DNA of 43,680 nt from the NCBI GenBank assembly GCA_002286715.1, contig NSJX01000086.1, positions 1 to 43,680 on the forward strand, given 5' to 3'. A program made the position numbers and the translations under genes. This document shows positions 1 to 43,680 of the stretch, piece after piece (positions within the stretch are counted from its first letter, which is position 1; the number at the start of each line of letters is the position of its first letter). The DNA is from Dentipellis sp. KUC8613. Its lineage: Eukaryota > Basidiomycota > Agaricomycetes > Russulales > Hericiaceae. The notes under the pieces are model-generated. The model worked only from the letters and a program-made list of their open reading frames with translations, was not told where the DNA came from and did no database searches.

Positions 1-2202
1 CTCTGCTCTAATTCATAGCTCATTGTCTCGAGGCTGCGGAGAGCGTTTTCTTTGCATCGTTCCGCGTTGTCCAGGGCCCGCCGCAAATTTTCCGAGTCAG
101 CAGAGGCCATCTGCAGTTCAGATCGGAGTATCTGCTTGCTCTGTTTCAGTTCGCCATTTTCCTCCTTCAATCCATGAACCACGTTCTTGGCTACCAACCG
201 AAGCACCTCAGTTACATGCCAGCACTTCCACAAAAAAAAATGGCGTACCCGATCTCAGCACCTCGTCGTCGCTCGGGTTCCTGTCCATCCTCGGCGACGA
301 CAGCTCTGTAAAAATTTCATCATACAACTCCCGAAACCGCCGCGCCCTGCGTGCGTCTCGCAGTCTTCTGGCATGCGCGTTCGCCGGCGACTCGACTGGC
401 AAGGAAGGAGTCTCCTGAATGGGGTCTTCCGGAACGGCGCTGGGCTCCGCCGCCTCGTCCTTGCCCGTGTCCGTGCGCTTGCTCGCGCGTCTGCTCGGCG
501 CCTTGGCTTGCGTAGCGTCGCTAGGAGGGGATGCGGAGGCTTTGCGCTTCTCCAGCTTCGGAGGTGCAGCGGGGATCCGAACAACCACGTTCGTTCCCGC
601 CGCCTGACGACTGGGTGTGCGAGAAGGTAGTTGTGACGACCCAGGAAGCGATGCTGTGGTCTTTGCGGCGAACGGCGTAAGAGAATCCGGACGGACAGTG
701 AACGCTACGGATTGGTATTGCGGGACCCGGCTTCTTGTATAAAGACTGCCTCCCGCGGGTATCAATAGACCCGTCTGCGGGAAGGAGCCAAAAGGAGAGT
801 ATGAGAGTGCCGCTTCCACAGGCGGAGGAGGCATCCCCTGGTACGGTGGTTCTGCGTTCGTCGCGGACTTGGACCGATTCTGGTTCTGATTGTCTGGCAA
901 AATAGCGCCCTGGGCCGGCGTTGCATCAGCGGAGGCCACTGCGGGCGGCGGAGCTGTTGGCGGCGCTACGTCGTCTACAGAAAAGCGAAACACGGACGAA
1001 GCGTCAGGACTCTGTTGAGGGTAGCTAGACCAGCCGTCTTTAGTAGCGTAGTACGGAGTTTGGTTTCCGGTGCTGTCGCTGGAGCCTGGCATAGGCATCG
1101 AAGGCACCTGAGACGAGCCACGCCACGCGGGTAAGTTTACCATCGCGGGTGACGGTGGAGGGGGCTGATAGTATGACGATGGTGGCTGCAAAGCCGTTCC
1201 TGCAGGCTGAAGAGGAAATGGGCGGTCACTACCAACGTTCCCATGGTACAGACCACGAGGTCCATCCACGCGGGGTGTTGCAGGAGTGGGACGAGGCAGG
1301 GAAGATGTCCGCACGAGATCTGGAGTATCGAACGATAAAGATGAGGGTGCAATCGATGCCGAGGCCGGGTCCCAGAGTGCACCAGTCGCCGACGACGAGG
1401 ACGTCTCGCCGAACTTCTGTGTTGGCGGAGAGAACATGGGCGTCGCATGTACTGGCGAGGTGATTGAAGGCGCAGGATTAGCCTTCGACGCGAGCCGTTG
1501 GGACACCATCGACGATGCAGAAGATGCAGGACGAGATCTTGAAGCAGAGTGCGAAGGCCGCCGAAGAGACGCAGGACCCAAGGGCGGACCCATTGGTGTA
1601 GGAACACCTGACGGCATATGTTGCGCGGGCCCTTCTCGAGACTGTTCTTCCGGGAGACAGGCAGCCGCGCCTTGCTGTTGAATCCCTGGCGACTCTGCTC
1701 CATCGTTCCTGAAAAATCGAAGATAGGCCTCGTTCAGAGCAGGGTCGTATGATGAACCTGAACGAGATGCCGGTCTACACCGATGTCAGTCAGATTAAAG
1801 CCTCGGAACATGTATAGTGAAGACTTACAGCTGACTTGATTTCTGAAGCACACTTGAGTTCAATAGAGCATCCTCTCCTACAGATGGCTCGGCTACCCCT
1901 TGAGGGTGCGAAGGCAGAGCAGGCGTGTTCGGAGTAATAGAAAGCGTGCGAGGGCCGGGATATTGCTGGTAGCCGCCCTGCGGCACAGAATAGCGTATCT
2001 CTCCCGTCGGCTGTGCATATTCGGTTTGACGGATTGCATAAGGGCCCGTCGACGGATGAAGGTCTTGGCTACAGGATGGGTCGCACCGGTTACCAGATGG
2101 CGCGCACAAAGAGAAGACGATGTATACTCACGGCCAAGACTGAGGTGTGGTGTGCGCAGAAGCTGAATCATGTTGATGGCTAGGATCATAAGGCGTCTGC
2201 AT
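1..2202 (-). CDS. L1: long disordered/coiled-coil protein, 3' end cut by window edge
   Basis: Function unknown. Four exons on the minus strand: 2202-2132, 2068-1829, 1774-249 and 190 to beyond base 1, joined by 54-63 nt introns with phases 2, 2 and 1. The start MQTP was chosen because the same codon opens the closest paralogues L5 and L7. Exons 2-3 encode a low-complexity Ser/Pro/Gln/Ala-rich region with a PPPP-VEAALSYSPFGSFPQTGLL block. This is followed by a KRKASASPP basic patch with nearby RRASKR, suggesting a nuclear protein, and by RRFRELYDEIFTEL and an acidic PSDDEVL segment just before the last intron. The last exon begins AKNVVH and enters a heptad-rich coiled coil that runs off the left edge. 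The reading frame is open throughout. By analogy with L5 and L7, a convergent S partner should lie left of base 1. Confidence 0.8.
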
Positions 2203-2990
2203 TGTCAGAGAAATCTGGAGGGTAGTCAATAAGTAATCGATTAGCTGACATCGGCGACAACTAACCTTGAAGGGCGAGAGTTGAAGTGCGAGAGGGCGAG
2301 GACGAAAAACGAGACTCTACAAGCATCTGAAGTCGCTTTCGTGCCATCTTATACGGAAGTGTCCTGGTCCTTGTGGGAAGACACCCCGAGGCCGATACTG
2401 CGCGACCAGAGCACGAGCGCCGTGCGCGTGCGGCATCCCCAGCAGCTTGAGCAGGTCGACCGCTGCAGAAAGCTAATAACCGGCAGACGAAGTTAGCTTT
2501 CTGAGAAGAGAAGGTCCAGGAGCTGCTTACCTGTTAACCATCGAGCTTCTTTCGCCACGATGGTATCATCGGACAACATACTGCATATTCCTCATCTGTA
2601 TGGGCAGACATAGAATGATTGGACGCTGTGCGTGATCTACGTAGCTGCTATATATGCGCGCGCCATGTGCTGGCATGTCGGAGTCGGGCGAAGTAGTGAG
2701 CGTACACTAGACGAGCGAGAAATCAGCATAAGGTTTGTGAGAAGACTACTCAAAGCTAGCTGAAGGAAACGACGACGCACGATTGCCACTGCCTTGAAGC
2801 ATCGATATGTTATCTTCAAGGCACAGACCTGCGGAACATATAGCGAGAGTGGACGGCCAGCAGGTAGAGTCTACATACACCCCCAAAACTCTATTCGTGA
2901 GAAGACGGAATGCACGTGAGCCACGCACATTGATGGGTCGCCTTCGATTGAGCGCCTATGGTACGTAGTGATGGGGCAGGGGGCGTCGCT
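2203..2990 (-). promoter_or_regulatory. Promoter and spliced leader of L1
   Basis: About 0.8 kb upstream of L1 is the inverted counterpart of the regions upstream of L5 (24383-25178) and L7 (40040-40820). It holds a TATA box (TATATA at 2649-2654), a CACGTG E-box near 2911-2920 and a leader intron whose donor follows CTTCAAG and whose acceptor lies just before the start codon. An upstream ATG in the leader would be out of frame with L1 after splicing. Confidence 0.55.
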
Positions 2991-4298
2991 GAGGACGTGC
3001 TCAAGTCTATTTGAATGTGCCCCAGTCGGCGTGCGAGGGAGAGAACTTAGTGGACAGGGACACGCGCGTACGGTCGTCAGACAAAGAAGGTCGACCTTGC
3101 AAACACGGAGGTTCCTTGTGGAATTGCTTGTCTGCTACGAGAGTGCTCTTTTCCCCAGTCCTGTTTATGTAAGAGCAGAACCATAGAGAGAGATATGCGG
3201 GCGCGCATGACGGGTGGCCTATAATTCATGATGATACCTGTTCAAAATTTCGCACTTGGGATGCATATCTTTAGAACATATAGAACACAGTTCGTCCGCG
3301 TTTGCTATGCTTTAGCCAGCTAGTGTGACAAATGTATAGAACACGTACGCCAAGACACCAAGACACGAACAGAGCTCTCCGCCGGAGAAGAAGAAGGTCG
3401 AGTAGATGCTAGATGACGGCGATAAGGGTATAGAGTTCGCAGAACCGTCTTCTGCAATGTCTTCAGGAATATCAGGAGGTACGAGTCGCTCAAACATTGG
3501 CTTTGAAACGATTGTAACGTCGCTATGAAGGTGTTGTACCGGTCATCGTTTGGTGCAATGAGTGATTTCATTTAGCGCCCGAATCGGGATTTTCCGAGGG
3601 CGGAATCCAACGGCGTTTCACGGTGAGTACGACAACTCATCCCTTCAGCCGTTGACTTCATCAACAGAACAACATCAAGTAAAGCAGTCGACCACGACAT
3701 GTCAGGGCTGCGATAAACAGAGTTTGGGCGTAATGGTGGGACTAGGCTGTTCCAACGTCCTTGCATCAATGCCCAGATTGGATCAACTTGATCGGTTTTC
3801 TGGATCCGATGCTGTATGTGTCTATGTTCGCATGCTCTTTTCAAATTCTGACAGACCTTACAGATCCTGCTCGCATGCTTCACCAACGACCGTGTATTAT
3901 GACGGTGCGCGTGCGGCGACACATGGCCAGATTATCGCGGCTGCACAAGCACGGTACGCTGTCTTCGGGGCTTGTCGTTCGGAATGGACGCTCGATGGAT
4001 ACTGGGTGAGTTCCTCAATCAGCGAAATTTCGTACGACACTCACTTTCTGTTTACCGTTGTGCTCCTTGCGCTCCCAGGCCCAGGGGCAACGTACTACGC
4101 GATACATTGATGAGAACTTGTTCCACCGCCGCATAGTCCTGGTCGTCCTTACAATCTGTGGTCGCCCTTACATTCCGTGGAGGCCTACCGAAGTTCGTTG
4201 TACCCAAGGACTCACGTACTTAAGATGGCGTAGGACATCGAACATCCCTTCAACGTCCTATCTTTCGTCGCCGTTGTCGCACAATCTCCAGGCTCGTT
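2991..4298. other. Intergenic, with a duplicated relic at 3235-3560
   Basis: No gene could be supported here. The stretch 3235-3560, read on the minus strand, is clearly homologous to 39515-39775 on the plus strand, far upstream of L7. Both contain the peptide-like string DIPEDIA followed by SPSSSIYST in one frame. It is therefore part of the inverted L1/L7 duplication and may be a decayed exon. The rest (3560-4298) has ORFs of under 190 codons without recognisable features; an unseen 5' exon of L2 could lie here. Confidence 0.4.
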
Positions 4299-6135
4299 AT
4301 GCAACCGCAGGCCACGGGATACTCTTCGCCAACACATGATGGTTTTTCGGCTTCTCCGTCTGCTAGTCATGCTACGCTATCCGATACGGTATTATCTGAG
4401 GTCTCGAGTCAGCTGTGAGTGTCAAATTCTTGTTGTTATGTAGCTTGGAACTGACGCAGTGGCAGAATTGAATCACTTGCATGCACCACCCATTATCCCC
4501 ATGCCGCTGGCCTGAGTTCATCGTCTCATGTCACTATGCTCCAAGCGCCCCACGAACGGAGTGGGCCTCCAAATTCTTCGCTTGCGAGCGCCGTGCCCTC
4601 TTACCCCTCGTCAATTTCTTCGTCTTCGTCTCTCTACCGACAGACATCTACATTTCCTTCGACACTTCCTCCACCTTCCGCGTCTCTTACCACTGTACCT
4701 TCCTTCGCCTTCGGTGCTCGCGTCGCCGCTCCGTTTCCATTGAAAGTGCAGCCTGCTCTCTCTATCTCCTCGTCGACACCCAAGCTTCCTCCGTGGTCAT
4801 TTTTGTCAGCAGACACCAGTTTCCGGAACCTGCCATCCACCAATTCTGTCTCATCATCCGCATTGTCGAGGGAAACTGTTGTTTCATGGAGCGACAGTCC
4901 TCAGCATCCCACGATGCCTGCCGTTGGCTATGGTCCACAATCCGGAACCCAGATTTCGAGCGTGTGCGACATACAACCAGCACATCACTTCAGCCACCTG
5001 CATAAATCATCCCTCGACAACGTACGTCCATCTTCTTTTTCTATAGACAAAGACATCTCATTTCGTCACTATTCAAGCTGCAAGAAAATCATCTGTCTCT
5101 GTTCCCGACTCGAGAGGATACCCCGCGCAATTGGCAAAATTTCACGCAGGCATCTGGTGTTACACCCTTGCTTCCACCTCTGAATTACGTGTCCGAGATG
5201 GTCCCTTCAATGCCTTGGCCAGTTAGCGCCGGTATGCAGGGCAGCATCTCTTGCTCTGAATTCACAGCCGATGCGTCCGAGTCCTTTAACCCTACTCCGC
5301 AGATGAATGCATCGGGTGTGTTTTCTTCACGGAACATGTCGCATGCAGATTCGCATCAGCCTGTCTTTTCTCCTGACGTGGACGCCAGACCCATGATACA
5401 GTCTGTTCCTTCCCAGGCGAACTTCGATGCAGCGGCCCGGGGCCCATACGAACCTACGAGAGCTATGAAGCGCAAAGCATCTGTGTCCCCGCCTGGTAAA
5501 GCTGAATTCAACGCAACATGGGCTGCAGATCGGGGAAATGGCAAAGTGAGGGCAGTCGACTTGGACCCAGGTGTCGAGGAAATGGATGAGGATGGGAAGA
5601 AGATGTGGGTACTTCAGCTCCTAAGCGAGGAAGTGAAAGAGCACATGGAGGTGTCGGATATCCGCAAGGGGCCGAGTGAATACGATGTTTTGAAAACCGG
5701 TGCGTCGTCTTCAGTCTTCGCGAAAATGATCATTAAAATACATGTTCCTTCCTAGCATTCGATGTAATCAGGGCATGGCAAGACTACGACCAACAGAGAG
5801 CTCAGCAAATAAATGCTTTCCAGGAGGCTTTGCAGGTAGCCCAATCACATTGGCTCAAAGAGAAAGTTCGGAGGGAGGCCGTAGAACTTAGGCTGGTCCA
5901 AACGGAGCGCGATGTGATGACTTTGAACACTAAAGTGGGCAAGCGGGCTGCGACCATAGAGACAGCGACGCATGATCTAGAAGAGACAAAGGCAGGACTT
6001 CGGAGGAGTAAGGACGAGCTGCATTCCAAAATAGATGAGGCGCAACGCGACGTGGATTTGATCAAACAGCTCTCAGCCGATCTTGTGTCTACAAGGGCTG
6101 AACTCCAGCGGTATCAAGAGCGCTATGCAAGGTGA
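4299..6135 (+). CDS. L2: divergent long disordered/coiled-coil protein, 559 aa
   Basis: Function unknown. Exons 4299-4414, 4460-5021, 5078-5699 and 5756-6135; introns 45-56 nt with phases 2, 0 and 1; 1680 nt in total. The start ATG (MQPQATGYSS) is the least certain part. Residues 1-350 are Ser/Pro/Thr-rich and probably disordered. AMKRKASVSPP near residue 355 matches the KRKASASPP patch of L1/L5/L7. An acidic stretch and LLSEEV...SEYDVLKT precede a phase-1 intron at the same position as in the other L genes. The last exon (about residues 434-559) is a charged coiled coil ending in AELQRYQERYAR, comparable to the AELQWYR ending of L5 and L7. The stop codon lies 46 bp from the stop of the convergent gene S2. 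Sequence is very divergent from L1/L5/L7, but the architecture is the same. Confidence 0.75.
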
Positions 6136-6181
6136 CATTGGATCTTCGAATAGCCAGTCATGTACATGATATGTATTATGC

Positions 6182-7000
6182 TTAATGAATGATAAAGGAA
6201 CATTCAGGAGGTTCACTTTGCAATTACGACTGTGTCGTCGTGTTGGTCTGATGTGTGCGCCTCCTCTGTCGTCGCTCCAGCCGGTACGCATCGTATTGAC
6301 GCGAGTAATCCTTGACGTGTTGTCTGCGCCGATCAACCATCTGTTCATACCGTTTGGCTTCATGTTGAAGTCCGACGGCGGCTACAAAACCAACATCATA
6401 ATTTAAGAATGTTATTTAATGGCACTATCAGACTCATACCTTGTGTTGCATCCTTGACGCCTAGAAAGTGCGTCAACATGTGGTCACAATTTGGACACAT
6501 CGTGAACCAGCGTGAGACTCCAAATGGCATCAAATACCTTGTTCAAATTTGTCAAGTGCGTTGCCATTCGCTTCGACGCGCTGGGTGAATTTCCTGAGAC
6601 CTTGTTCGCATCCGTCCAGATGACTGTTAAGTTTCACATTTTCGCATCTACTCTCCTCCTCAAGTCGCCTAATTTCACCACACAATCGATTGCATTCGTC
6701 GAGTGCAGCAGCATCCTGTTGTGGAAGGGAGTTATTAAATTTGCAGCTCAGCTTTTGGAAAGACAACGTACTCGGCTCGCAATTGCAGAATAGATTCTCC
6801 GATTAATGGGTGGCCTTTTGCCCAGGTTCTGCCACATGGAATCAGCCTAGGAATTTCTTGCTTCACGGTGCTATTACCGGAGCCTGAGTTACGTATCGGG
6901 TCCTCAGCTTCTCTGGGGTGTCGGTGTCCTTACAAAGCTGAACGGGACCTGAGTTCGTTGGAAGCTCTTTGCGGCTAGTTTGCGGATGATTGGTCGGCAT
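6182..7000 (-). CDS. S2: short coiled-coil protein convergent with L2, 193 aa
   Basis: Function unknown. Five exons on the minus strand: 7000-6893, 6846-6772, 6715-6538, 6460-6440 (21 nt micro-exon) and 6381-6182. Introns are 46, 56, 77 and 58 nt; all phases agree and the total is 582 nt. The N-terminus (MPTNHPQTSRKE) is polar; LGKRPPINRR is basic. From DAAALDECN onward the protein is a charged heptad-rich helix with EESRCEN and, near the end, EAKRYEQMVDRRRQ followed by DYSRQYDAYRLERRQRRR. The EESR-EN and DYRR-type stretches resemble S3b, so these may form one subfamily. A TATA box lies about 130 bp upstream. The stop codon is 46 bp from that of L2, so the two 3' UTRs almost certainly overlap. 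Confidence 0.7.
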
Positions 7001-7127
7001 TATCACCGCACGGTCGGTAAGACTAAACAACTTGATGAACGATTTCGCAAGCATATTGGTCAGACGGGAGAAACGCACCTCAAGAACCAGTAACGAAATG
7101 CACTCGGGTCGGGTAGTGACCGGCCCT

Positions 7128-11103: not shown

Positions 11104-11706
11104 ATGATCGATCGTAATCATAGCCAGCATGCGAAGGGCGTCCACAGGTCCAACGCCATCGGCTCGCAGTTTGTTCATCCTCCAGACGAGACACCACTGA
11201 ATGAAGTCCTACCTTTTCCGAGCTCGCCGCCGCCACTATTTGGTTCACCCACCAATTCGGTTCGGGAGGCAAAAGCCTCATCAAGGACGGTTGTTCCAAT
11301 CTCCGTCAGAGCTGCTTGATCGACCCTGAGCTGCAAGGTGTGCAGGAAGGATTTGACCCATGCTTGTACGAAGGAGTCACAGGATTTATCAATGTTGAGC
11401 CGTTCGGGACGCTGGCGCTCGATGTAGTGGTTCAAATAGGTACTCTCCTTTGAATTACGCTCACTTGAATTTGCATTCTCATTCTCATTCTTCAATTTCT
11501 CAAGGAAGGAACAGGAAAGAGGCGAGGAGGTCCAATCCCTGCAGGGTGACTTGATAGAAACACATTCGGGAGCTTACGACATAAACCCGCAGGAGTCCGG
11601 AATGCAAGTGAGAAAACTCGAGGGCGAACTCTACCGAACCCAGAATCAGAAGGAGTCCTCAGCGACTTAAACCAAATTACAGCGTTATCATGATTCAAGA
11701 CCCTAG
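11104..11706 (+). pseudogene. Dead L3: truncated, frameshifted relic of an L4-type gene
   Basis: This is the 3' third of an L4-like gene. EVLPFP near 11210 matches L4 EVLPFP. After a frame change, LYEGVTGFINVEPFG...VVVQI (about 11366-11446) matches L4 LYEEVALFIKVEPFE...EVVQI right at the phase-1 donor. The coil exon follows (EEVQSLQGDL; KLEGEL). Relative to L4 the first two thirds of the gene are missing, the frame shifts at least once upstream of the intron and again around the acceptor, and a CAA codon has become TAA at 11668-11670. The original stop survives at 11704-11706. It still faces the intact gene S3. Confidence 0.7.
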
Positions 11707-11832: not shown

Positions 11833-12431
11833 TCAGTGGTGGGTGCGCCATTGTTCATCCCTATTTTTTTGACGACCTCGCCTGATATCACGGAGTTCTT
11901 CATTGTATGCATTGGTCCTCCGCCCTAGGTCCTTGACCAGCTGAATGCATTCATCCGTTGACCTCCTTAGCCGTTCATACCGTTCATTGAGATCGATGAG
12001 CCCTCGCCTGCGTTCTTCATGCACCTCTAAGGGGTCCCTATTGACTTGCTTCCACGCGCTTTCTTCAGTACTTTCTCTTTGGCGTTTCTGCTCCTCACTG
12101 CGACGTTCGCGCTCCTTGCGCTCTTTAGAGAGAGTGGCCCAGAACTCTTCGTCCTTGCGATACTGATATAACAGGTGAGTGGCCCATCTGAATAGACTGC
12201 AATGTTCGGTCCACCTTGGCCTCTAACTGCTCCTTAATACTCGGGATAGGGTCTCGCCGTGGTGGACTGTGAGGACCCGCGTCAACCCACATGCTTCCGC
12301 ACACATGTGCTCAATCTTGAAGCTTGAGGTACTGACCTTGCCGACCGGGATCTCTTCTGAGCCCTTGGAACATTGAAACCTACGGTGCGCCCTCGACGAC
12401 GAGAGGGCGGCGGGTCTTCCGAGGGACGCAT
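11833..12431 (-). CDS. S3: short coiled-coil protein, intact partner of dead L3, 167 aa
   Basis: Function unknown. Exons 12431-12337, 12293-12215 and 12162-11833 on the minus strand (95 + 79 + 330 nt, phases 2 and 0). The N-terminal exon is basic and Pro-rich (PPPSRRRGR, KRSRSA). The short middle exon ends EQLEAK, and the long exon opens YRKDEEFWATLSKERKE, a signature shared with S4 and S8. The remainder is a heavily charged coiled coil with ERYERLRRSTDE and a basic tail ending RTHH. The coil exon has exactly the length of the S4 coil exon (330 nt). The frame is open, although the facing L3 is dead. S3b lies upstream in the same direction. Confidence 0.75.
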
Positions 12432-12585
12432 GCACCTCAGTTGGAGGTAAAGTCGTAGCCTATTTGCGAATATATGTTGATGCTGAAACGGCGTACACAG
12501 GCAGTGAGTCAACGAAGCATACTGTGAGGAAGAACACACCTTGGTAGCGCAGCAACAAAACCTATGCGCGTTTATAAAGAGGATA

Positions 12586-12852: not shown

Positions 12853-13439
12853 CTATCGCGTGTCTTGGCCACGATTAACATTCCATCGTAAATTGTCGTC
12901 ACGTTGACGGACGCTTCGTCTGTAGTCACGAATACTTTGACTATGAATGTTGGATCGTCGCTCAAAATCTTTGAATGCCTGCTTCATTGCGGCGCGCTCT
13001 TCTGAGCCACTGTCGAGGGCTTGCCTCCGTAACTTGATTTGCTGAGCTTCCATATTGATCGCTTCCCCCTCCTTATCGACTGCCTCCATATACTTCTGGC
13101 CCACAAATTCGAGTTTATCCACCATTTGCTCAAATTCAAGACAAAGTTTCGCAAATTCCTTGTTGCCGTCTTTAAACCTTTGAACGTGTTCGACAAGTCT
13201 CTGATTCTCGCGTCTACTTTCTTCGTTGGTCTGCCGGATCTTATTGAGCTGCCGAAAACAGGAGGCAATTTCCTCAGTTCTCTTACGACCCTGAAAATAT
13301 GAGTGAGCTTCTCTGAGAAAAAGTGTAGAGTCCAGCGCACCTGCTGTTCTAGTTGTGCAGCAATTTGCTGCTTAAAATCCTGTTTCGCTGAGCTACAAAC
13401 AGAATCGTCAATTCGAGCACCTTCGGCATCGAAGATCAT
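12853..13439 (-). CDS. S3b: second short coiled-coil protein upstream of S3, 178 aa or longer
   Basis: Function unknown. Two exons on the minus strand, 13439-13341 and 13290-12853, with a 50 nt intron (donor GTGCGC, acceptor TTTTCAG, phase 0). The start MIFDAEGARIDD is the first ATG in the open frame. A further 5' exon cannot be excluded because a CCGTAG acceptor-like site lies just upstream. After an acidic N-terminus the protein is an almost continuous coiled coil (QLEQQ, NEESRRENQRL, FEQMVDKLEF) ending in RRSNIHSQSIRDYRRSVRQRDD. The EESRREN and DYRR segments resemble S2. No L gene faces it directly, since S3 lies between it and dead L3. Confidence 0.65.
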
Positions 13440-25178: not shown

Positions 25179-27629
25179 ATGCAGACACCTTTTTATCTTA
25201 GCAATCAACATGACCCAGCTTCTGCGCACAGCGCACCACAGTTTCGGCCGTAAGTATACATCGTCTTGTCTGTGGGCATGTCATCTGGTTACCGACGCGA
25301 CCCACCCCGTAGCCAAGTTTCTCGTCCATCCACCGACCCTTATGCAACTCGTCAAACCGACTATACGCAACAGCCGACGAGAGAGATATGCTATTCTGTG
25401 CCGCAGAGCAGCTACCAACAACATCCCGGCCATCGCAGGCTTCCAGCCACTCCGTACACGCCGGCGCCTGCCCTGCCCTCGCACCCCCAGGGGTCGGCTG
25501 GGTCATATGTAGGAGAGAACGCTCTTTCTAACCAAAGCGTGCCTCAGAGTTCAAGTCAGCTGTAAGTCTTGATTACAAATTGTTTCGAGGCGTAACTCTG
25601 ACTGGCACGAATGTAGATCAGCATCTCGTTCGGGCTCGTCTTATGACCCTGCTCTGAACGATGCATATCTTCAATTTCTCAATAACGATGGAGCAGATAT
25701 GCCACTCCCGGAAGACCAGCCTCGAGAAGGGCCTGCGCAGCATGTGCCGATAGGTGCTTCTACAGCAATGGCCCCGCCCTCACGCCCTCCGTCCCTTCGG
25801 CGGCCTTTGCACTCTGCTTCAAGATCTCGTCCATCTTCCTCAGCGTCGTCGATGGTGTCTCTACGGCTCGCGTCGAAGGCTAACCCTGCGCCTTCAATCA
25901 CCTCACCAGTACATGCGACGCCGACGTTCTCTTCACCAACACAGAAGGTCAGCGACACATCCTCTTCGTCAACCAGTGGTGCACTCTGGGACCCAGCATC
26001 GACGTTCATCGCACCCTCGTCTACATCGTCTGACGCTCCAGGTCTTGTGCGGACGTCTTCCCTGCCTCGTCCCATTCCTATAACACCTCGCGTGGACGGT
26101 CCCCATGGTGTGTACAATCGAGATGGTGCTCGTGATCGCCATACCCCACTTCAGTCTGCAGGAATGGGTCCGCAGCCACCTTCGTCGTACTTTCAGCCGC
26201 CTCCGCCATCACCAGCAATCATGAACTTTCCTGCATTCCCTCCCGCATGGCACGGCTCATTCCAGGTGCCTGCGATGCCTATGACAGGCTACAGCGACAG
26301 TACCCCGTATCACGCCACCGCAGACAACCGATCTAGCTATCCTCAACAGAGTTCGGACGATTCGTCCGTGTTTCGCTTTTCTGTAGACGACGTAGCGCCG
26401 CCAACAGCTCCGCCGCCTGCAGTGGCCTCCGCTGATGCAACGCCGGCCCAGGGCGCTATTCTGTCAGACAACCAGAACCAGGATCGGCCACAGTCCGTGA
26501 CGAACGCAGAACCACCGTACCAGGGGATGCCTCCGCCGCCCGTGGAAGCGGCACTCTCATACTCTCCTTTTGGGTCCTTTCCGCAGACGGGTCTATTGAT
26601 GCCCGCGGGAGGCTGTCTTCATATAAGAAGCCGGATCCCGCAGAACCAATCCGTAGCGTTCACTGTCCGTCCGGATTCTCTTACGCCGCAGTCCTCGCGA
26701 GTCGGCGCAAACACTACAGCATCGCTTCCTGGGTTGTCACAACTATCTTCCCGCACGCCCAGTCGTCAGATCACCGGAACGAGCGCGGTATTTCGGATCC
26801 CTGCTGCACCTCCGAAGCCGGAGAAGCGCAAAGCCTCCGCATCCCCTCCTAGCGACGCTACGCAAGCCAAGGCGCCGACCAAACGCGCGAGCAAGCGGAC
26901 CAACACGAGCAGGGACGAGGCGGCGGAGCCCAGCGCTGTTCCAGAAGATCCCATTCAGGAGGCTCCTTTCTTGCCAGTCGAGTCGCCGGCGAACGCGCAT
27001 GTCAGGAGACTGCGAGAAGCACGTAGGGCACGGCGGTTCCGGGAGTTGTATGCTGAGGTCGTCACAGAGTTGTCATCGCCGAGGATGGACAGGAACCCGA
27101 GCGACGACGAGGTGCTGAGATCGGGTACGCCAGATTTTTTCTTATGTGGACGTGCTGGCATATAACTGAGGCGCTTCTGTTGGTAGCCAAGAACGTGGTA
27201 CATGAATTGAAGGAGGCGAATGGCGAACTGAAGCAGAGACAGCGGGAACTCGAATCTCAGTTGCAGATGGCAACTGCTAAATCGGACAGCTTGCAGCAAG
27301 ACCTGTATGATGCGAAACGGTGGAAAGAAAACGCTCTCCGCACCTTCCAAACTATGAAGTATGGATCTGAGCAGATGACAGAGAAGCTGCAAGAGTGTAC
27401 GGTGCAGAAGCGCCGCCTAACAGACAAGTTGCAGGAAATTTGGGGTGAGTTGGAAAGAATGAAAATCCAGTCACAGGTCGAAATGCAAGAGAAGGAAGAA
27501 AGCAAAGCTCACGCATCGGAGAACAAGGACAAAGCCTTACGACTCACAGCCGAGAAGCATCAGCTAGATGACGAAATTAGGTCCATGAAGGCTGAGTTGC
27601 AATGGTACCGGAGTCATAATCCCACATGA
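25179..27629 (+). CDS. L5: long disordered/coiled-coil protein, 756 aa
   Basis: Function unknown. Exons 25179-25249, 25313-25561, 25617-27124 and 27187-27629 (71 + 249 + 1508 + 443 nt; phases 2, 2, 1). The first two exons give a short polar N-terminus with SAHSAPQ and a tract ending SVPQSSSQL. The 1.5 kb exon 3 starts SASRSGSSYDPALNDAYL and is Ser/Pro-rich and probably disordered. EKRKASASPP near residue 510 and KRASKR form a basic, nuclear-type patch. RRFRELYAEVVTELSSPRMDR and PSDDEVLRS close the exon. Residues about 610-756 form a long coiled coil (AKNVVHELKEANGELKQ; MTEKLQECTVQKRR) ending AELQWYRSHNPT. The stop lies 76 bp from that of the convergent S5. It is intact and the cleanest member of the L1/L5/L7 group; an N-terminal extension of about 30 residues from the leader ATG is possible. 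Confidence 0.85.
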
Positions 27630-27705
27630 TTTTATAGAACATTTGTACGAGGAATGCATATAAAGCTTCAATTCTACTACGTCGTTCGATGACTGAGCAC
27701 ATGGA

Positions 27706-28396
27706 TCATCTCAGGCCAGCGCGTCGATTCGCTCGTCGAGCCTCACGGTACTCTACCTGGGCTTCATGGAGCTGTTGATCCTGGGCTTTGCTAAGCCGTC
27801 GGTATTCAATGGCCTTCCGGTCGCTTTCTTCATACATTTCGGCAAGCTCCTTTATGATCTGGTCGCACTTATCGACCCCTCTTGTCACTCGTTCCTGGAA
27901 TTCTTTGTCCTCTTTGGCTGCGTTTTCCATGGCGTCCTTCATCTTTTGTTGCAATTGGTTGGCATCTTTCATACACATGTCAGTACCCTTAAGCATGCTA
28001 TATAGATCAGACATACCTTCCCCGAAGTCTCTCCAGAAATCGCGGAGGCCCTGAGCGCCTTCGTCGGATCTGCGGCATATAGCCTCAGACTCTTTCAATA
28101 TTCGTTGTGTTTCGTCGTCAACACCATGCTAAACTGTTATGAGGATCACGTCTAGACATATCATGCGCATGACGCACCCGTCGCGAAATCACGCCCTCAG
28201 CGCCCTTGCCACGAGAGTTACCTTTCACCGGATAGGTGGTCGGCACGGCACGCTTAGGGGTTGGCTTGTACACCCCTGGCCTTGAAAATACCGGCAGAGA
28301 GCCCTTCGGAGGCACCTTCGGGCGTCGGCGAACAACGACAGGCGAAGTGTTTGCAGAGCGAACTGTATAACTGGGAAAGAAATTGGGAGTGGCCAT
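27706..28396 (-). CDS. S5: short coiled-coil protein convergent with L5, 213 aa
   Basis: Function unknown. Exons 28396-28178 and 28128-27706 on the minus strand, with a 49 nt phase-0 intron. Start MATPNFF matches the S6 start. The N-terminal 73 residues are basic and Pro-rich (VVVRRRPKVPPKGSLP; YKPTPKRAVP), like a nuclear or nucleic-acid-binding tail. The second exon has FWRDFGEGMSDLYSMLKG followed by a charged coil (NQLQQKMKDAMEN; RKAIEYRRLSKAQDQQ) and ends REARRANRRAGLR, also the end of S6 and S7. A 51 nt in-frame stretch beginning GTATGT, with a TACTGAC branch-like site and AAAG end, could be an alternatively spliced intron, which would give 196 aa. The stop lies 76 bp from that of L5. Confidence 0.8.
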
Positions 28397-29667: not shown

Positions 29668-31330
29668 ATGCCAACTCCTGTGTCGCTATTGGTGGACAAA
29701 CGACATGATGCAGCTTCTGCGCCCAGCACACCTCAGTCTCGGCCGTGAGTATCATTTATTTCTATTACCGTGTGCCGCTTGGCAACTGACACGGCATGGC
29801 ACATAGCCATGATCCTCCTCTCTCTACGGATCCTTATGCGCTCAATTGGACTGGCCATTCGCAGTAGACGGCGGTCGACATACGCTATGCGGCGCCGCGG
29901 AGCAGCTACCAGCAGCATCCCCCGCAACTCACGCCTTCAGTCACCCTGTACACACTTGCTCTGCCTTTGTACTCTCTCAGTGTAGTCAGTCAACCTGTCA
30001 GAAACGACATGCTGTTCACTACACATGAATCTGATTATTTGAGCCAGCCGTAAGTCTCCTTCGTCCCTCCGTTACAGACCGCACATCTCAAGTGGCACCA
30101 TGATCTGAGGGTCGGGTTTCGTGCAAACTCAGGTCATGATCCCGCTTGAAATCAAACACATCTTCAATGTTCAATGACAATGGATTGCAGTCGCCAAACA
30201 ATCGACAGCAAGATGCGACTCGTCGCCATTTGGAAGGCCAATCTGCAGGAGGCCCGGTGCAATCTACGCCGTTTGGCGTTTCTCAAGCAATTGCGCCACC
30301 CTGAGGCTCGCCACCCGCATCGTCTCGACGACCTCCGTCCCATTCGGCCGTCTCAAGCAGCCCATTGTCGGTGTCGTTGTCGGGTGCCCTCCGCCTGTCT
30401 TCGAAAGCAGATAGCCAAATTCCCTCGACACCCACAGTGGATGATAGAGAAATTGCTCGTAGTTGCCCAACCCCGCTTTGCCCTGCAGGGACGGCTTTAC
30501 AGCTATCCTAGGCCTCGTCGTACTTTCGGCCACTTCTGCCCTCGCCAACAATGTCGACTAGCGACGCGACGCAAGTCAAAACGCAGACCAGACACACGGT
30601 CAAGCGGACAAACAAGGGCAAGGGCCAGGCGACGGGGCCCAGCGCCGGGCCCGGAGACACTGTCGAAGAGGTTTCTACCTTACCGGGGGAGCCGCCGGCG
30701 GCCGCGCATGCCAGGAGACTGAAAGACGCACGCAGGGCTCGGCATTTTCGGGAGTTGTACGCTGAAGTCGACACAGCGCTGTCGTCGCCCAGGATGAACA
30801 GGAACACCAGCGACGACGATGTACTGACGTTGGGTACGTCGATTTCCATTTCATGGATGCGCCGGCGTACAGCTGAGGTGCTTCGATTCATAGTAAAGAT
30901 TGTGGTTCAGTGACTGGAAGAGGAATTTGGCGAACCTTAGCAGACCGAGCAGATCAGTTGCAGAAGATGGATAGATGCTGATTTGCAGGCTTCACAGCAG
31001 GAACTGAACGAGAGGAAACGATGGGAAGAACATACCCACCTCAACCTTCAAACAACGAGGCACGGATTATGGCAGGCAGAAGGGAAGATAGGAAGACTTA
31101 GCGCAGAGAATGGCGGCCTACTGGTCGAGTTGCAGGGGGAAAGCGGTTAGTCGGAAAGAACTAAGATCATGTTGCGAACCAGAACACAAAAGAAAGAAGA
31201 AAGCGATGCTCAAGCGCGGTGGAACGGGGGAAAAGCCGAACAGTTCAGCATCGCGAAGCTGCAGCTAGAGCGCGAGCTTCGATCCGTGAAAGCTGAGTTG
31301 CAACGGTATCAGACTCACCATCCCACTTGA
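29668..31330 (+). pseudogene. Dead L6: decayed L5/L7-type gene
   Basis: The exon plan of the L1/L5/L7 group is still visible. A first exon at 29668-29744 ends in the same SAPSTPQSRP context and GTGAGT donor. The second exon follows after CATAG with DPYALNWTGHSQ, then an in-frame TAG at 29865-29867. The third exon starts GHDPA followed by TGA, loses a base near 30170, and lacks about half of the disordered region. A stretch from SDATQVKTQTRHTVKRTNKG to RHFRELYAEVDTALSSPRM and SDDDVL (30555-30830) is well preserved. The KRKAS patch is lost. The coil exon has a TGA early (where L5 has GAA) and an internal TAG, but keeps the C-terminal KAELQRYQTHHPT. At least four disabling changes make a functional product unlikely. 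Its convergent partner S6 is intact. Confidence 0.8.
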
Positions 31331-31401
31331 TCCTATAGAGTACTTATATTGTACAAGGAATGCATGCTAGTTTCAATTTTACTACCTCGTTCAATAAGAC
31401 A

Positions 31402-32089
31402 TCATCTCAGGCCTGCGCGTCGACCATCTCGTCTAAGCTCACGGTACTCCATCCGGACTTCGTGGTATTCCTGAGCCTGGAGTTTGCTAATTCGCCGGTG
31501 TTCAATGGCCTTCCGTTCGCTTTCTTCACACATTTCGGCAATCTCCTTTTTGATCTGGCGGAACTCACTCATTTCTCTTGTCCATCGTTCCTGGAATTCT
31601 TTGTCCTCTTTGTCTGCATTTTCCATGGCGTCCTTCATCTTTTGTTGCAATTGGTTGGCATCTTTTATACACACGTCAGTACCCTTAAGCATGCTGTATA
31701 GATCAGACATACCTTCCGTGAAGTCTCTCCAGTCGAGGATGCGCTGGGCACCTTCACACAATTCGTGGCGTAAGGCCTTAGACCGGTTCAGCAGTTCAGT
31801 GTCGTCCTCATCATCAGACTGGTATGCTGAATGAGTTCCGTCTCCAAAAAGAATGATACATATGACGTACCTGGCACGAAAGCAAACCCTCAGCGCCCTT
31901 ACTGCGAGTTTTACCTTTCACCGGATAGGTGGTCGGAACGGCACGCCTAGGGTTTGGCCTGTACACCCCCGGCCTTGAAAATATCGGTAGAGAGCCTTTC
32001 GGACGCTCCTTCGGGCGTCGGCGAACAACGACCGGCGACCCGTTTGCAGAGCGAACTGTAGAACTGGGAAAGGGATTGAGTGTGGTCAT
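31402..32089 (-). CDS. S6: short coiled-coil protein, intact partner of dead L6, 211 aa
   Basis: Function unknown. Exons 32089-31871 and 31818-31402 on the minus strand. The first exon is 219 nt, identical in length and nearly so in sequence to that of S5 (VVVRRRPKERPKGSLP; YRPNPRRAVPTTYPVKG). The acceptor CATACCAG keeps the frame: SDDEDDTELLNRSKALR, then DWRDFTEGMSDLYSMLKG, a charged coil (NQLQQKMKDAMENADKED; ERKAIEHRRISKLQ) and the shared end REL-RRDGRRAGLR. The 51 nt GTATGT...AAAG in-frame intron candidate is also present. No stop or frameshift, despite the ruin of the facing L6, whose stop lies about 70 bp away. Confidence 0.78.
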
Positions 32090-32466: not shown

Positions 32467-32956
32467 GCGCTTTCGTCATCCAACTTCATGCCGCCGCACA
32501 ATCGTCGTGTTTGAGCATGTATAAAATCTAGCATTAGATGACAGATGTTTCATCACTCTGAATAGAGTGGAACGAAGTAGCTATTTCCTAGCAAAAGACT
32601 TACGGATTACTACCCGCACCAGAGATTCATCAACAATGAGGCAGGTGGGGTATGCTCGAGAGCGAGTGACGCCGGTGAGAGTCTACAGATGCTAGTGGAC
32701 GTACAGCCGTAGGAATTGAGGAGGTGCTTTGACACGAGTCTTGCACGGACCGACGATCCCGCAAGACCGCTCTTCAGTGCTAGGTCCAAGTGCAACGTGA
32801 AGCGCATGAACATTCGCTCATCAGATGGAACCATGTGTAGTGTGACAGTGACATGAAGGGAAGGCCTCAAAGACACCCAAGCTACAGTAAATCGGGTTGA
32901 GCCATGAGCGATGTGGGTGGAATTACTGAGTATGACGGTACTCACCGGCGCCGTCC

Positions 32957-33281
32957 ACCAGTACCTCTTAGTCTTGATATCGGCTTAGGCCCGTGTATAG
33001 GGGGGCATATGCAGCCCTAAGTCGCTTACTACGGCGGAATAGGGCGCCCACACGGGCCAGCCCGCGCGTGGCCTTCCCGATCGGGAAGAGCCTGCCTGTC
33101 TCCTCCCTGCTGCGTCGGACTGGCCCAACCAGCCCACACCTATTCCCCGAATGAGAAGTTTTCACTATGTCGTGCGCCCCGACGCCCAGAGAGCCCGCTG
33201 CCTCTTCTAGAACAGGAAATCATACGTGTTTCGTGCGCCCCGACGCCCAGCGAGCCCATCCCGTCTTCCCGTTCGGGAAGG
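32957..33281 (+). repeat. Left terminal inverted repeat of the MULE-type element
   Basis: Inverted copy of 34866-35195. It contains palindromes of the type TTCCCGATCGGGAA (near 33079) and TTCCCGTTCGGGAA (near 33267). Confidence 0.88.
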
Positions 33282-34865: not shown

Positions 34866-35195
34866 TGCCTTCCCGAACGGGGGGGCGGGATGGGCTCGAG
34901 GCTGAGCGTCGGGGCACACGAAACACGTTTTATTTCCCGTTCGGGAAGAGGCGGCGGGCTCGCTGAGCGTCGGGGCGCGCGACACAGTGAAGGCTTCTCA
35001 TTCGGGCAATGGGTGCGGGCTGGTTGGGCCAGTCCGACGCAGCAGGGAGGAGACAGGCAGGCTCTTCCCAATCGGGAAGGCCACGCGCGGGCTGGCCCGT
35101 GTGGGCGCCCTATTCCGCCGTAGTAAGCGACTTAGGGCTGCATATGCCCCCCTATACACGGGCCTAAGCCGATATCAAGACTAAGAGGTACTGGT
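34866..35195 (-). repeat. Right terminal inverted repeat of the MULE-type element
   Basis: Inverted copy of 32957-33281, with TTCCCGTTCGGGAA (near 34936) and TTCCCAATCGGGAA (near 35066). The inner border is less conserved. Confidence 0.88.
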
Positions 35196-35490
35196 GCGCC
35201 GTCCGTCCAATTTGCAGCAAGACCGTCCACCTCACCAATTGTTGCAGGTCTGCCGTCAATCCCGCACTATCGTACATGTCCTGCTGTAAGCGTCTGAGGC
35301 TATCTTTCCAAAATTCGCTGTCGGTGGTACATTCTGCGACGGACCGAAGTCAGAAGGAGAGCAGTGCCAGTCAAAGTCTTGGCTACGGGCGCTTGTATGG
35401 CCACGGATGAGAGTCGTACAAGCGCCCGCCTCACGTGCTCCGAGCCGGACGCGTTGTTTACTGTGGTGGCTGTGCTGGTTGAATATGCCA

Positions 35491-36734: not shown

Positions 36735-37503
36735 ATGGCGACTTCGACCCGAGCGACTGATCGGAAGCATCCGCCGGTGGACCCGTCTCCTGCTCGTTCT
36801 CGTAGGCGCGCTTCCAAGGCCCGGAAGAGCTCCCGATCTGCAAGGTGTGTGTGTTGCGAGACCAACGACAAATGTCCAAGGGTGTGTAAATAGCGCGTGT
36901 CCCGACATCCCGCCAAGGAAAAGCGTCGTTCCGAGTGTCAAGGAGCAGCTAGAGAAGAAGGTAGGACGTTTTTCATGTTTTGTCTAAATGACGGCCCACT
37001 CGCTACATCAGTATCGAAAGGAGGAAGAATTCTGGGCCACTCTCTCGAAAGAGCGCCAAGAACTCGAGCGTTGGACCGAGGAGCGGAGGCGCAACAGAGA
37101 AGCTGCTGAAGAGTATGCACACTTGTGTCATATATATGCGGACTCGGCCGATGGACTAGCGCAAGATATCAAGGAGTACGAGGAGTCGATCGCTCGGACT
37201 GCACAGCTGAACGAGGAGGCTGCCCAGCACATTGAGACATGGGGACAGCATCTCGATGCATGGGGACAAGCCAACAGGGATCACAAAGAGTGGAATGATA
37301 GATGTGCGCAACTGAACCGTGAAAACAGCCGGCGACTCGACCGACGTAGACAAGAACTCGACGAGGAAAAGAGGATCACTGACGAATACACCAAACAAGT
37401 CTATGATCTGGGGCACCGTGTCAATGCATACTGCGAGGGAGTTCGCCAGATTCGACGGGATGTCCGTCAATTCGGGGACGATCTACGGCGCAGGCATTCC
37501 TGA
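36735..37503 (+). CDS. S8: lone S-type coiled-coil protein on the plus strand, 222 aa
   Basis: Function unknown. Exons 36735-36844, 36894-36960 and 37012-37503; introns of 49 and 51 nt, phases 2 and 0, the same plan as S3 and S4. Start MATSTRA aligns with the S4 start. The N-terminal exon is basic (PARSRRRASKARKSSR). The middle exon ends VKEQLEKK. The last exon opens YRKEEEFWATLSKERQELE as in S3 and S4, but then has about 50 extra coil residues (ADGLAQDIKEYEESIAR; EAAQHIETWGQHLDAWG) before a region like theirs (DEEKRITDEYTKQVYDLGHRVNAY; RQIRRDVRQ). No L gene lies downstream on the minus strand, so this is either a copy whose partner was lost or one that acts alone. Confidence 0.75.
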
Positions 37504-37711: not shown

Positions 37712-38429
37712 CAGCGGAAGAAGCGCGGTAGAGATTTTGCTGCAGAAGGTGGCCCAGGAGCAAAACTCGTGGTCAAAGGGAAACGGAGTGCAGCGTCCGC
37801 CGAGGAGACCGAACGCGCAGGGCGTGAAGGAGTGTGCAACGGTAAAGTAGGCGTCGAAGAGTGCGAAGGATGGACAATCACAGGAAGTGACGGGAGGGTA
37901 GTAGCAGTCAGCGAGTGCCACTATGGATCAGCGATAGTCGATGGAAACGCTCCAAAGGTAAGTTGGGCGACGTTCTCCTGATACTGAGTTTGCGCCGGAT
38001 TAGAGTACCGCTGATCTCCCTCGGCGGAAGGCTGAGTGCCTACGGGTCGTGAGGATGATCGGTTTGCACTATGTCAAGGAGTATTCAGAACTTGCGCTTG
38101 GTGCTGGTGCTTATCGGGGATGGAGGGCTTGGTATCCCCATCTCCGTTGCTACAGCTGCACTGCATGGGCACGAATGCTCTGGCGATATAGGACACGCAC
38201 GTAAGCCAAAGGGACACGCATGGGAGACATTCGAGCTCACTGAAGACGAGGGTCGCTGGACCCTGGGGACAATCGAGAGGGAGAGGCAAGCGTAGTACGC
38301 GGTGCCGCACGCATGGCCGGCATCTTGCTGGCCATGTTGATTAGACGAGTCGTTCGATATGAAGGATTTCACGAGGCCGACGACTGGAGATTGGAGGAGC
38401 AAAGGCTGACCAACTTCTGGAATTTGTGA
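37712..38429 (+). CDS. Candidate spliced ORF, unknown product, 5' end not found
   Basis: A frame open from about 37694 can be spliced through 37957/38004 (46 nt intron, GTAAGT...TTAG) and 38200/38246 (45 nt intron, GTAAGC...GAAG with an ACTGA branch-like site), ending at TGA 38427-38429 with all phases consistent. It reads GRDFAAEGGPG, then GWTITGSDGRVVAVSE, RRKAECLRVVRMIG, ARMAGILLAMLIRR and WRLEEQRLTNFWN. No initiator ATG is found and the composition is odd, so it may be chance. A competing frame at 38071-38295 is also open. I do not recognise either. Confidence 0.3.
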
Positions 38430-40820: not shown

Positions 40821-43264
40821 ATGCAGACGCCTTCTGATCATAACGATCAGCCTGATCCTGCTTCCGCGCACAGTGCACCTCAGTCTTGGCCGTGAGTATA
40901 CACCGTCTTCTCTGTGGGCACGCCATCTGGTAACCGATGCGTTCCACCCCGTAGCCAAGATCCTCCTCCGTCAATGGGTCCTTATACGATCCGTCAACCC
41001 GACTATTTGCAACTGCCGAGGGGAGAGACACGCTATTCTGTGCCGCAGCGAGGCTACCAGCAATATCCCGGCCCTCCCACGTTTTCAGTCACTCCGAACA
41101 CGCCTGCCCTGCCCTCGCACCCCCAGGGGACGGCCGGGTCATTTGTAGGAGAGAATGCTCTATCAAACCAAAGCGTGCCTCAGAATGCAAGACAGCTGTA
41201 AGTCTTGATTATAAGTTGTTTCGAGGCGTTAGTCTGACTGAAACCGTTGCAGATCAGTATCTCGTTCGGGCTTGTCTTATGACCCTGCTCTGAACGATGC
41301 ATATCTTCAATTTTTTAATAACGATGGAGCAGATATGCCACTCCCGGAAGAACAGCCTCGAGAAGGGCCCGCACAGCGTGTGCCGACAGGTGCTTCTACA
41401 GCAATGGTCCCGTCCTCACGCCCTCCGTCCCTTCGGCGGCCTTTGTGCTCTGCTTCAAGATCTCGTCCATCTTCCTCAGCGTCGTCGATGGTGTCCCTAC
41501 GGCTCGCGTCGAAGGCTCACGCTGCGCCTTCAATCACCTCACCAGTACATGCGACGCCGACGTTCTCTCCGCCAACACAGAAGGTCAGCGACACGTCCTC
41601 TTCGTCAACCAGTGGTGCACTCTGGGACACAGCATCGGCGTTCATCGCACCCTCGTCTACATCGTCTGACGCTCCAGGTCTTGTGCGGACGTCTTCCCTG
41701 CCTCGCCCCATTCCTGCAATACCCGGCGTGGATGGTACCCGTGGTCTGTACCATGGGAACTTGGCTAGCGATCGCCAAGTCCCCTTTCAGCCTGCCGGAA
41801 CAGCTCTGCAGCCACCATCGTCATACCATCAGCCGCCTCCGCCGTCACCCGCCGTGGTAAACTTTCCCGCATGGCGCGGCTCATCTCAGGTGGCTGTAAT
41901 GCCTACGCCAGGCTACAGCGACAATACCAGAAGCCAAACTCCGTACTACGCTACTGCAGACAGCTGGTCTAGCTACCCCCAACAGAGTCCTGACGCTTCG
42001 TCCGTGTTTCGCTTGTCTGTAGACGATGTAGCGCCGCCAACAGCTCCGCCTCCTGCTGTGGCCTCCGCTGATGCAACACCGGCCCAGGGTGATATTCTGC
42101 CAGACAACCAGAACCAGGATCGGTCCCAGTCCGTGACGAACACAGAACCACCGTACCAGGGGATGTCTCCTCCGCCCGTGGAAGGCGCACTCTCATACTC
42201 TCCTTTTGGGTTCTTTCCGCAGACGGGTTTATTAATACCCGCGGGAGGCAGTCTTTATACAAGAAGCAGGATCCCCCAATACCAATCCGTTGCATTCACT
42301 GTCCATCCGGACTCTCTTACGCCGCAGTCCTCGCGAGTTGCTGTAAACACCACAGCATCGCTTCCTGGGTCATCGCAGCTACCTTCCCGCACGCCCAGTC
42401 GTCAGATGGCCGGAACGAGTACGGTATTTCGGGTTCCTGCTGCACCTCCGAAGCTGGAGAAACGCAAAGCCTCCGCATCCCCTCCTAGTGACGCTACGCA
42501 AGCCAAAGTGCCGACCAAACGCGCGAGCAAGCGGACGGACACGGGCAAGGACGAGGCGGCGGAGCCCAGCGCCGTTCCAGAAGACCCCATTCAGGAGGCT
42601 CCTTCCTTGCCAGTCGAGTCGCCGGCAAACGCGCATGTCAGGAGACTGCGAGACGCACGCAGGGCGCGGCGGTTTCGGGAGTTGTATGACGAGATTTTTA
42701 CAGAGCTGTCGTCGCCGAGAATGGACAGGAACCCGAGCGACGACGACGTGCTGAGATGGGATATGTTCGGTTTCAATTCTCTGGATGTGCAGGCATATCA
42801 CTGAGGTGCTTCGGTTGGTAGCCAAGAACGTGGTACATGAATTGAAGGAGGCAAATGACGAACTGAAGCAGAGCCAGCGGGACCTCCAATCTCAGTTACA
42901 GACGGCGTCCGCTAACTCGAAGGGTTCCTGGCAGACCCCGGGCGATGCGGAACGATGGAAAGAAAATACTCTCCACACCCTCGAGACAATGAGCTCTAAA
43001 CTAGAGCAGACGAAAAAGAAGCTGCAAAAGTCTGGGGCAGAGAAGGGCGGACTAGCGGACGAGTTGGAGGAAGTACGCGGTAAATTGGAAAGAACAGAAA
43101 CCATGTTGCAAATCAAAAACCAAGAGAAAGCAGAAAGCGATGCTCGAGCGCGGTGGAACGGGAACAAAGCCGAAGAATCCAGCACCGCGAAGCTGCGGCT
43201 AGAGGAAGAGCTTCGATCCGTGAAGGCTGAGTTGCAATGGTATCGGACTCGTAATCCTACATGA
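40821..43264 (+). CDS. L7: long disordered/coiled-coil protein, 757 aa
   Basis: Function unknown. Exons 40821-40891, 40955-41197, 41253-42769 and 42822-43264 (71 + 243 + 1517 + 443 nt; phases 2, 2, 1). The sequence is very close to L5 and L1: MQTP start, SVPQ...RQL second exon, SYDPALNDAYLQFF, a Ser/Pro-rich disordered region, EKRKASASPP near residue 507, KRASKR, RRFRELYDEIFTEL, PSDDDVL and a long C-terminal coil (VVHELKEANDELKQSQRD; LEEVRGKLERTE) ending AELQWYRTRNPT. The last-intron donor of L1 and L5 (TCGG-GTACGC) is destroyed here. A GTTTCA site 15 bp further on restores the frame exactly, adding WDMF at the junction. The stop lies 81 bp from that of S7. Confidence 0.82.
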
Positions 43265-43345
43265 TTTTCTAGAGCACTTGTATAAGGAATACATGTGTAG
43301 CTTCAATTCTAATATGCCGTTCAATAAGATGCAGGACATGGATCG

Positions 43346-43680
43346 TCATCTAAGGCCGGCGCGTCGACCATCCCGTCGAAGCTCACGGTACTCCACCTGG
43401 GCTTCATGGATCCGTTGATCCTGTGCTTTGCTAATTCGTCGGTGTTCAATGGCCTGCCGGTCGTAATCTTCTGCCGCCTTATCAATGTTTTTCATGATCT
43501 TGTCTACTTTACCGAGTTCTTCCCTCACGATTCCTTGAACTCTTTCACTGTCTCTGTCTGCATCTTCCATGACGTCCTCCATCTGTTGTTGCAAATGGCT
43601 GGCACCTTTCATACCCACGTCAGTAACCCTGAGCATGCTATATACATCAAACATACGTTCCGTGAATTCTCTCCAGAAAT
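43346..43680 (-). CDS. S7: short coiled-coil protein convergent with L7, 5' part beyond window
   Basis: Function unknown. The last exon of an S5/S6-type gene enters from the right edge with FWREFTERMFDVYSMLR. It continues as a charged coil (SHLQQQMEDVMED; VDKIMKNIDKAAEDYDR) and ends EYRELRRDGRRAGLR, as in S6. The coil is more diverged from S5 than S6 is. The GTATGT...TACTGAC...AAAG 51 nt in-frame intron candidate is present here too (about 43601-43651). The basic N-terminal exon must lie right of base 43680. Confidence 0.75.
   Translation of the reverse strand, partial: FWREFTERMFDVYSMLRVTDVGMKGASHLQQQMEDVMEDADRDSERVQGIVREELGKVDKIMKNIDKAAEDYDRQAIEHRRISKAQDQRIHEAQVEYRELRRDGRRAGLR

Follow-up and report, generated by a model that had tools for sequence, protein, structure and literature searches.

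Tail-to-tail L/S gene pairs in Dentipellis: a candidate two-gene module of bHLH-type proteins and small coiled-coil partners

Convergent gene pairs along the contig

We analysed a window of 43,680 nucleotides from the genome of Dentipellis sp. KUC8613 (34.1 Mb, 171 contigs), comprising bases 1-43680 of a contig of 79,030 bases (NSJX01000086.1, here C157). It holds an array in which longer coiled-coil genes (L) face short coiled-coil genes (S) tail to tail. Six convergent pairs are present, with L2 to L7 standing opposite S genes across stop-to-stop gaps of 71 to ~160 bp by coordinates, and a further gene, L1, lies at the left edge. This is the array that the original prediction, made from the sequence alone, had described, and its statement that both partners carry coiled coils and basic patches was likewise borne out.

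Three of the pairs combine a gene of the L-A type with an S gene of the S5 type. L5 (25034-27629, + strand) is open and corresponds to deposited protein P0001; its stop codon lies 76 bp (27629 to 27706) from that of S5 (27706-28396, -), an open three-exon gene corresponding to deposited P0019, which has a longer N-terminus. L6 (29617-31330, +) is an L-A relic with several in-frame stops, and S6 opposite it (31402-32089, -) is an open three-exon gene across a gap of 71 bp (31330 to 31402). L7 (40821-43264, +) is an L-A gene with exon 1 and coil exon open, separated by 81 bp (43264 to 43346) from S7 (43346-43680, -), an S5-type gene truncated by the window end.

Two pairs combine L-B and S3 types. 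L3 (16187-17791, +; span without the upstream exon) has a helix-loop-helix (HLH)-like stretch and a coil and matches the L-B protein of contig C147 at 35% over 514 columns; S3 (17924-18533, -), whose first exon starts MATLSPGTGGKH, lies 132 bp away (17791 to 17924). L4 (11077-11693, +) is an L-B relic with broken frames, recognized by a 34-residue L-B match at 11334-11435, and faces the S3-type gene S4 (11833-12434, -; N-terminal exon apparently degraded) across ~140-160 bp (to 11833). Beyond the six pairs, an S3-type gene (36735-37503, +), deposited as partial P0016, stands opposite an L-B 5' remnant (37744-38043, -) that matches the C147 L-B protein at 37% over 103 residues.

The remaining pair is L2 and S2. 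L2 (5006-6135, +), traced through open reading frames (ORFs) with putative 5' exons, has the motif KRKASVSPP, an HLH-like stretch without a basic region and a coil ending in RAELQRYQ; S2 (6224-7054, -), with about three exons and an approximate 5' end by reading frames, lies 88 bp beyond it (6135 to 6224). L1 (1-2202, -), an L-A gene found by tblastn with deposited L models, comprises exon 1 at 211-2202 and a coil exon from 209 to the edge. As the window begins at base 1 of the contig, L1 is truncated and its partner is not scorable.

The L and S protein families

Common features of the L proteins are a long N-terminal stretch of disorder, the motif KRKASASPP, a run of basic residues, a helix-loop-helix pattern and a coiled coil of ~90-165 residues ending near AELQRY, and their genes have an intron within the second helix of the helix-loop-helix. 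L-A and L-B form one family (profile alignment 97%, E 8e-11). L2 is likely a distant member, judging from the weak match of its coil exon to the L profile (E 0.0011) and an hhalign alignment to L-A (70% over 51 columns); it has no basic stretch, and the basic region varies among L proteins. At 44.5-45.4 kb of contig C116, a relic of an L-A coil and basic helix-loop-helix (bHLH) part adjoins an L-B 5' remnant, perhaps as a chimera.

The Pfam HLH cut-off (PF00010, 20.7) was passed by the D. fragilis protein P0012 (3.9e-6, 27 bits), the only one of ten L proteins to do so in one scan; in a second scan one of seven passed. A search of the genome with the same family found eight other places and no L locus. 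A profile restricted to the bHLH part of eight sequences gave TAL1 (E 0.016) and BMAL1 (E 0.23), both in register, at ranks 2 and 3 of 10, below a designed repeat protein (E 0.002). In the AlphaFold model of P0013 (mean predicted local distance difference test score, pLDDT, 60.9), a helix at 210-238 is followed by a loop and a helix at 249-342, the latter scoring mostly 89-98, and this second helix continues into the coil. L is probably a divergent bHLH-coil protein and may be nuclear and bind DNA. In the deposited P0012, an unrelated N-terminal part replaces the usual L N-terminus, through either an insertion or a fused gene model.

Genes of the S5 type comprise three exons. Four S copies (C157 54 kb, C161, C147 55 kb and C116 49 kb) keep an open frame only if a small second intron (55-58 nt) is spliced out; the other copies have an intron of 51 or 57 nt here, and for them the frame alone is not decisive. 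Deposited P0020, P0025 and P0027 are identical to our splicing of those genes, the P0029 model reads through the second intron as coding sequence, and P0021 has one junction that differs. The S protein is predicted to begin with a basic, disordered segment that includes the conserved stretch PKGSLP..SRP, followed by one long helix (residues 77-192 in the model of P0021), and long helices are predicted by structure models in both L and S. A Pfam scan of nine S proteins gave no convincing family match.

The S3/S4 and S5/S6/S7 genes had been taken to be unrelated in sequence, which is not supported: profiles of the S3 and S5 types align end to end at 90.6-95.3% probability with two D. fragilis sequences included and 77.5% without them, against 0.8-1.9% for controls (L-coil, reversed sequence), and the two types are one diverged family. 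The S2 profile matched neither the S3 nor the S5 type (4.4% and 3.8%), so S2 may or may not be related to them. Because the S3 and S5 types are one family and L-A and L-B are another, the layout is inherited from an ancestral pair. The tail-to-tail layout of the earlier claim stands, conserved by descent among related types.

Pairing and co-variation among copies

Pairing was tallied by hand in retrieved parts of contigs C157, C147, C116, C88, C161 and C80. A convergent S5-type gene lies at 18 of 18 L-A 3' ends (genes or relics) with readable downstream sequence, more than chance would give. A search for S3-type genes found seven loci, six of them opposite an L-B gene or remnant. The open L-B partners are L3 and genes at 38.8-40.6 kb of C116 and 57.6-59.5 kb of C147; the remnants are L4 and those at 37.7-38.0 kb and 66.1-67.4 kb of C157. 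At the seventh locus (C147, 42.7 kb) no L was seen alongside. At C80, L and S still adjoin, and their proteins differ by more than half from those of the other copies.

Both L homologues found in D. fragilis have S homologues with adjoining locus tags, from which adjacency is read: g5234 (L) and g5233 (S), on contigs of 29,774 bases each, and g3577 (L) and g3578 (S), on contigs of 42,088 bases each. Two more D. fragilis S homologues, g6070 and g11194, have no L among the matches. The S protein search returned 22 matches (17 from KUC8613, 4 from D. fragilis and 1 nameless), and the L protein search was limited to the 7,993 candidates with the most words in common, so that wider L relatives may be missed. 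At this sensitivity, with only part of the L candidates scored, no member of the L/S family was found outside Dentipellis.

Protein co-variation was assessed with 10 copies, or 9 without C80, nucleotide co-variation with 9 copies, and substitution rates with 7 close copies. Omitted from some or all of these tests were L1 and L7 (edges), L72 (no exon 1), C116_L50 (no full intrinsically disordered region, IDR) and the relics L6, C157 73 kb, C116 44 and 58 kb, and C88 403 kb. In the 9-copy protein set, distances in the L coil track those in S exons 2-3 (rho 0.86, p 0.0008) and follow weakly those in the same protein's bHLH part (0.37, p 0.066) and IDR (0.30, p 0.072), while IDR and bHLH correlate at 0.76; an earlier set of 8 copies without C80 gave 0.85 for coil and S and 0.23 for IDR and coil. 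Centre distances by coordinates are about equal, at ~0.44 kb between bHLH part and coil and ~0.51 kb between coil and S exons 2-3. In 7 of 10 copies, coil and S exons 2-3 give the same nearest neighbour; coil and bHLH agree in 3 of the 10 and coil and IDR in none.

Adjacent windows of 300 bases correlate at 0.70-0.90 in L exon 1, at ~0.5 across the border of bHLH, intron and coil, at 0.51-0.72 inside the coil and at 0.82-0.87 over the L/S junction, then at 0.23 in S near exon 2 and 0.37-0.58 further on. Between L exon 1 and the S promoter, which flank the core, the correlation is nonetheless 0.71-0.76. In two copies the core, made up of coil, gap and S end, is swapped. In C161, L exon 1 and the S promoter resemble group 1 of the copies (exon 1 0.82-0.96 versus 0.57-0.82 for group 2), whereas the sequence from the second half of the coil through gap and S resembles group 2 (0.78-0.92 versus 0.48-0.80). 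The reverse is seen in C88_397, where L exon 1 and S exons 1-2 are mostly closer to group 2, but group 1 is the nearer one (0.61-0.80 versus 0.46-0.56) for the coil's second half, for the gap and for most of S exon 3. Additionally, coil gaps in 12 copies, 3-nt differences aside, are 21 or 168 nt, that is 7 or 56 residues or one or eight heptads. Open frames and heptad-sized coil gaps stand against plain decay.

Other features of the window accompany the array. A lone S-like coiled-coil ORF (12853-13371, -) has an S-type C-terminal end, a weak match to P0018 (23%, 33.5 bits) and no neighbouring L. A second coiled-coil-like ORF (22740-23003, -) is by eye unrelated to S, and a similar gene occurs at 412.0-413.5 kb of C88. 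Positions 19627-20738 are part of a short-chain dehydrogenase-like gene, with a 97% copy at the very end of C88 (415272-416383) and a 70% copy on C116 (23196-24519); both of these contigs have L/S units. An inverted repeat (32956-33251 and 34901-35196), whose 296-nt arms match at 94% with 1.65 kb between them, may represent a small mobile element.

Possible matched partners, rival explanations and known systems

From the layout, the families, the open frames, the adjacency in a second species and the variable core with its exchanges, all of them read from sequence, we infer that L and S may be matched heteromeric partners in a two-gene module, a tentative reading that we favour and would not yet call probable. 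L would be a bHLH-type nuclear protein with a disordered N-terminal region, a basic helix-loop-helix and then a coiled coil, and S its dedicated small partner, with a basic disordered N-terminus and one long helix. The C-terminal coil of L would pair with the C-terminal helix of S, and S would take a regulatory role by determining which L dimers form or act on DNA. Tail-to-tail order would place both partner-choosing segments adjacent within <1 kb, and duplication and gene conversion would therefore tend to move both jointly, leaving the bHLH half, the S N-terminus and the promoters with separate histories. The main support comes from the 18 of 18 pairings, adjacency in D. fragilis, coil-S co-variation, core swaps, heptad-sized gaps and predicted helices. 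Matched partnership, as originally proposed, thus remains the leading hypothesis through co-variation, swaps and D. fragilis adjacency, but is qualified by the similar rates of gap and coil and by breakpoints within the coil.

A number of observations weigh against this partnership. The copies are few and related, and most are unit duplications, hence not independent; the diverged C80 pair and the two D. fragilis pairs are more independent data points. Of the 23 S5-type loci, 18 have an L and 5 have none in view (two of the five are exon-1 fragments and one lies beside sequence reading N). With C80 included, the coil also tracks bHLH and IDR (coil-S 0.88, coil-bHLH 0.59, coil-IDR 0.55, IDR-bHLH 0.85). 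At the nucleotide level the coil correlates at 0.86 with S exon 3, at 0.65 with the end of L exon 1 and at 0.56 with S exon 2, and the non-coding gap is part of the same core (0.87-0.90; coil-gap 0.87). There is a breakpoint inside the coil, where the window correlation falls to 0.51 near 27400, and the C88_397 swap begins within the coil, so that its coil and S nearest neighbours differ. The ratio of nonsynonymous to synonymous differences (pN/pS) in the coil is 0.98 (0.74-1.36), and positive selection is not shown; S exons 2-3 have a ratio of 0.78 (0.58-1.10) and S exon 1 one of 0.61, and the values for IDR and bHLH part are lower still, at 0.45 and 0.40 (0.24-0.65). The gap changes at about the same pace as the coil (0.151 versus pN 0.175 and pS 0.179; 0.248 versus 0.224 and 0.259 with C161 added), a parity that contiguity and relaxed constraint would give.

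The chief rival draws on some of these observations. It holds that two neighbouring lineage-specific genes underwent joint duplication and gene conversion with no partnership, the core being a relaxed-constraint patch between better-constrained ends, with breakpoints set by local similarity. It accommodates a contiguous core that takes in the gap, a coil ratio near 1, breakpoints within the coil too, and the many relic copies, but sits poorly with frames that remain open, with coil gaps that, when of any size, are one or eight heptads, with L and S that still adjoin in D. fragilis and at C80 when their proteins are more than half different, and with a coil-S correlation that exceeds the bHLH-coil correlation at comparable distance. 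We regard it as possible yet doubtful. The in-coil breakpoints, and a gap not more conserved than the coils, are the reason for giving it this weight, and they further lower the odds of a bolder form of matched partnership, which we consider unlikely: an undescribed Dentipellis recognition system of bHLH-type proteins and dedicated coiled-coil partners, tail to tail, whose matching C-terminal coils would form a swappable specificity cassette, possibly for allorecognition or selfish transmission.

Allorecognition or a mating-like system, in which L-S combinations of different nuclei would be distinguished via their coils by analogy with mushroom HD1/HD2, we judge distinctly unlikely. Paralogous gene pairs with a conserved DNA-binding-type region, a variable helical partner-type region and adjacent variable segments would suit it, and HD1/HD2 are similar (PMC8305134). 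However, the family was found only in Dentipellis at the search sensitivity, with part of the L candidates scored, and the L/S units do not lie at the mating-type loci, the homeodomain (HD) cluster being on C95 and the STE3 cluster on C1. A selfish poison-antidote pair, in which one protein (L, or else S) would do harm that its linked partner counteracts, with matched pairs favoured, seems more improbable still. The units are copy-rich and fast-changing with decayed members, and open S genes lie beside broken L genes at S6 and the L6 relic, C88 402/403 kb, C157 72/73 kb and C116 57/58 kb. Recombination in wtf drivers yields new poisons that require their own antidote (PMC13160552). Yet L is about four times longer than S, and for that reason L is expected to break before S. 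To our knowledge, the bHLH-type region is also unlike known fungal killers.

Matched partnership, if L and S do bind, would make the array a ready set of related coiled-coil pairs, and would allow a direct test of whether keeping interacting segments together shapes gene order. In many parallel copies, the coiled coil of L appears to share its inheritance with the adjacent gene to a greater degree than with the remainder of L, and the units could amount to a recognition or selfish system in fungi distinct from the mating-type and het loci already known.

Among known systems, bHLH-leucine-zipper factors (PF00010 HLH plus coil) resemble L in having a basic stretch, helix, loop and helix running into a long coiled coil. 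L differs in that most members fall below the Pfam cut-off, the disordered N-terminus is very long, an S gene is linked, and the basic region is variable and lost in L2. The wtf family of fission yeast is multicopy and recombining with many members (PMC13160552). L/S units likewise are multicopy and recombining, with many members. In wtf, a single gene makes both poison and antidote, whereas L/S are two convergent genes, one of them bHLH-type, and drive-like behaviour is here only hypothesised.

The pair system as a whole lacks those marks of HD pairs that were examined, although L alone is probably a divergent bHLH protein. A literature search found no papers on bHLH in Dentipellis, and the titles and abstract openings surveyed showed no described system with such a layout. 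Pfam scans of L proteins (10), L C-terminal parts (7) and S proteins (9) gave no homeodomain; Homeobox_KN places are three on C95 and one at 38 kb of C88, ~360 kb from its L/S units. HD1/HD2 genes of the mushroom A locus are divergently transcribed, encode homeodomains and choose partners via N-terminal helical regions (PMC8305134), whereas L/S pairs are convergent. The HD1/HD2 genes are like L/S in being tandem paralogous pairs in which a conserved DNA-binding region adjoins a variable helical region for partner choice (PMC8305134); L coils are variable, and partner choice through them is proposed. The recognition system outlined above would mirror the HD1/HD2 layout, built on bHLH: head to head with N-terminal specificity in the one, tail to tail with C-terminal coils, a bHLH-type L and other contigs in the other. 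The resemblance to HD1/HD2 concerns layout and perhaps mode of action, and does not make L/S a member of that group.

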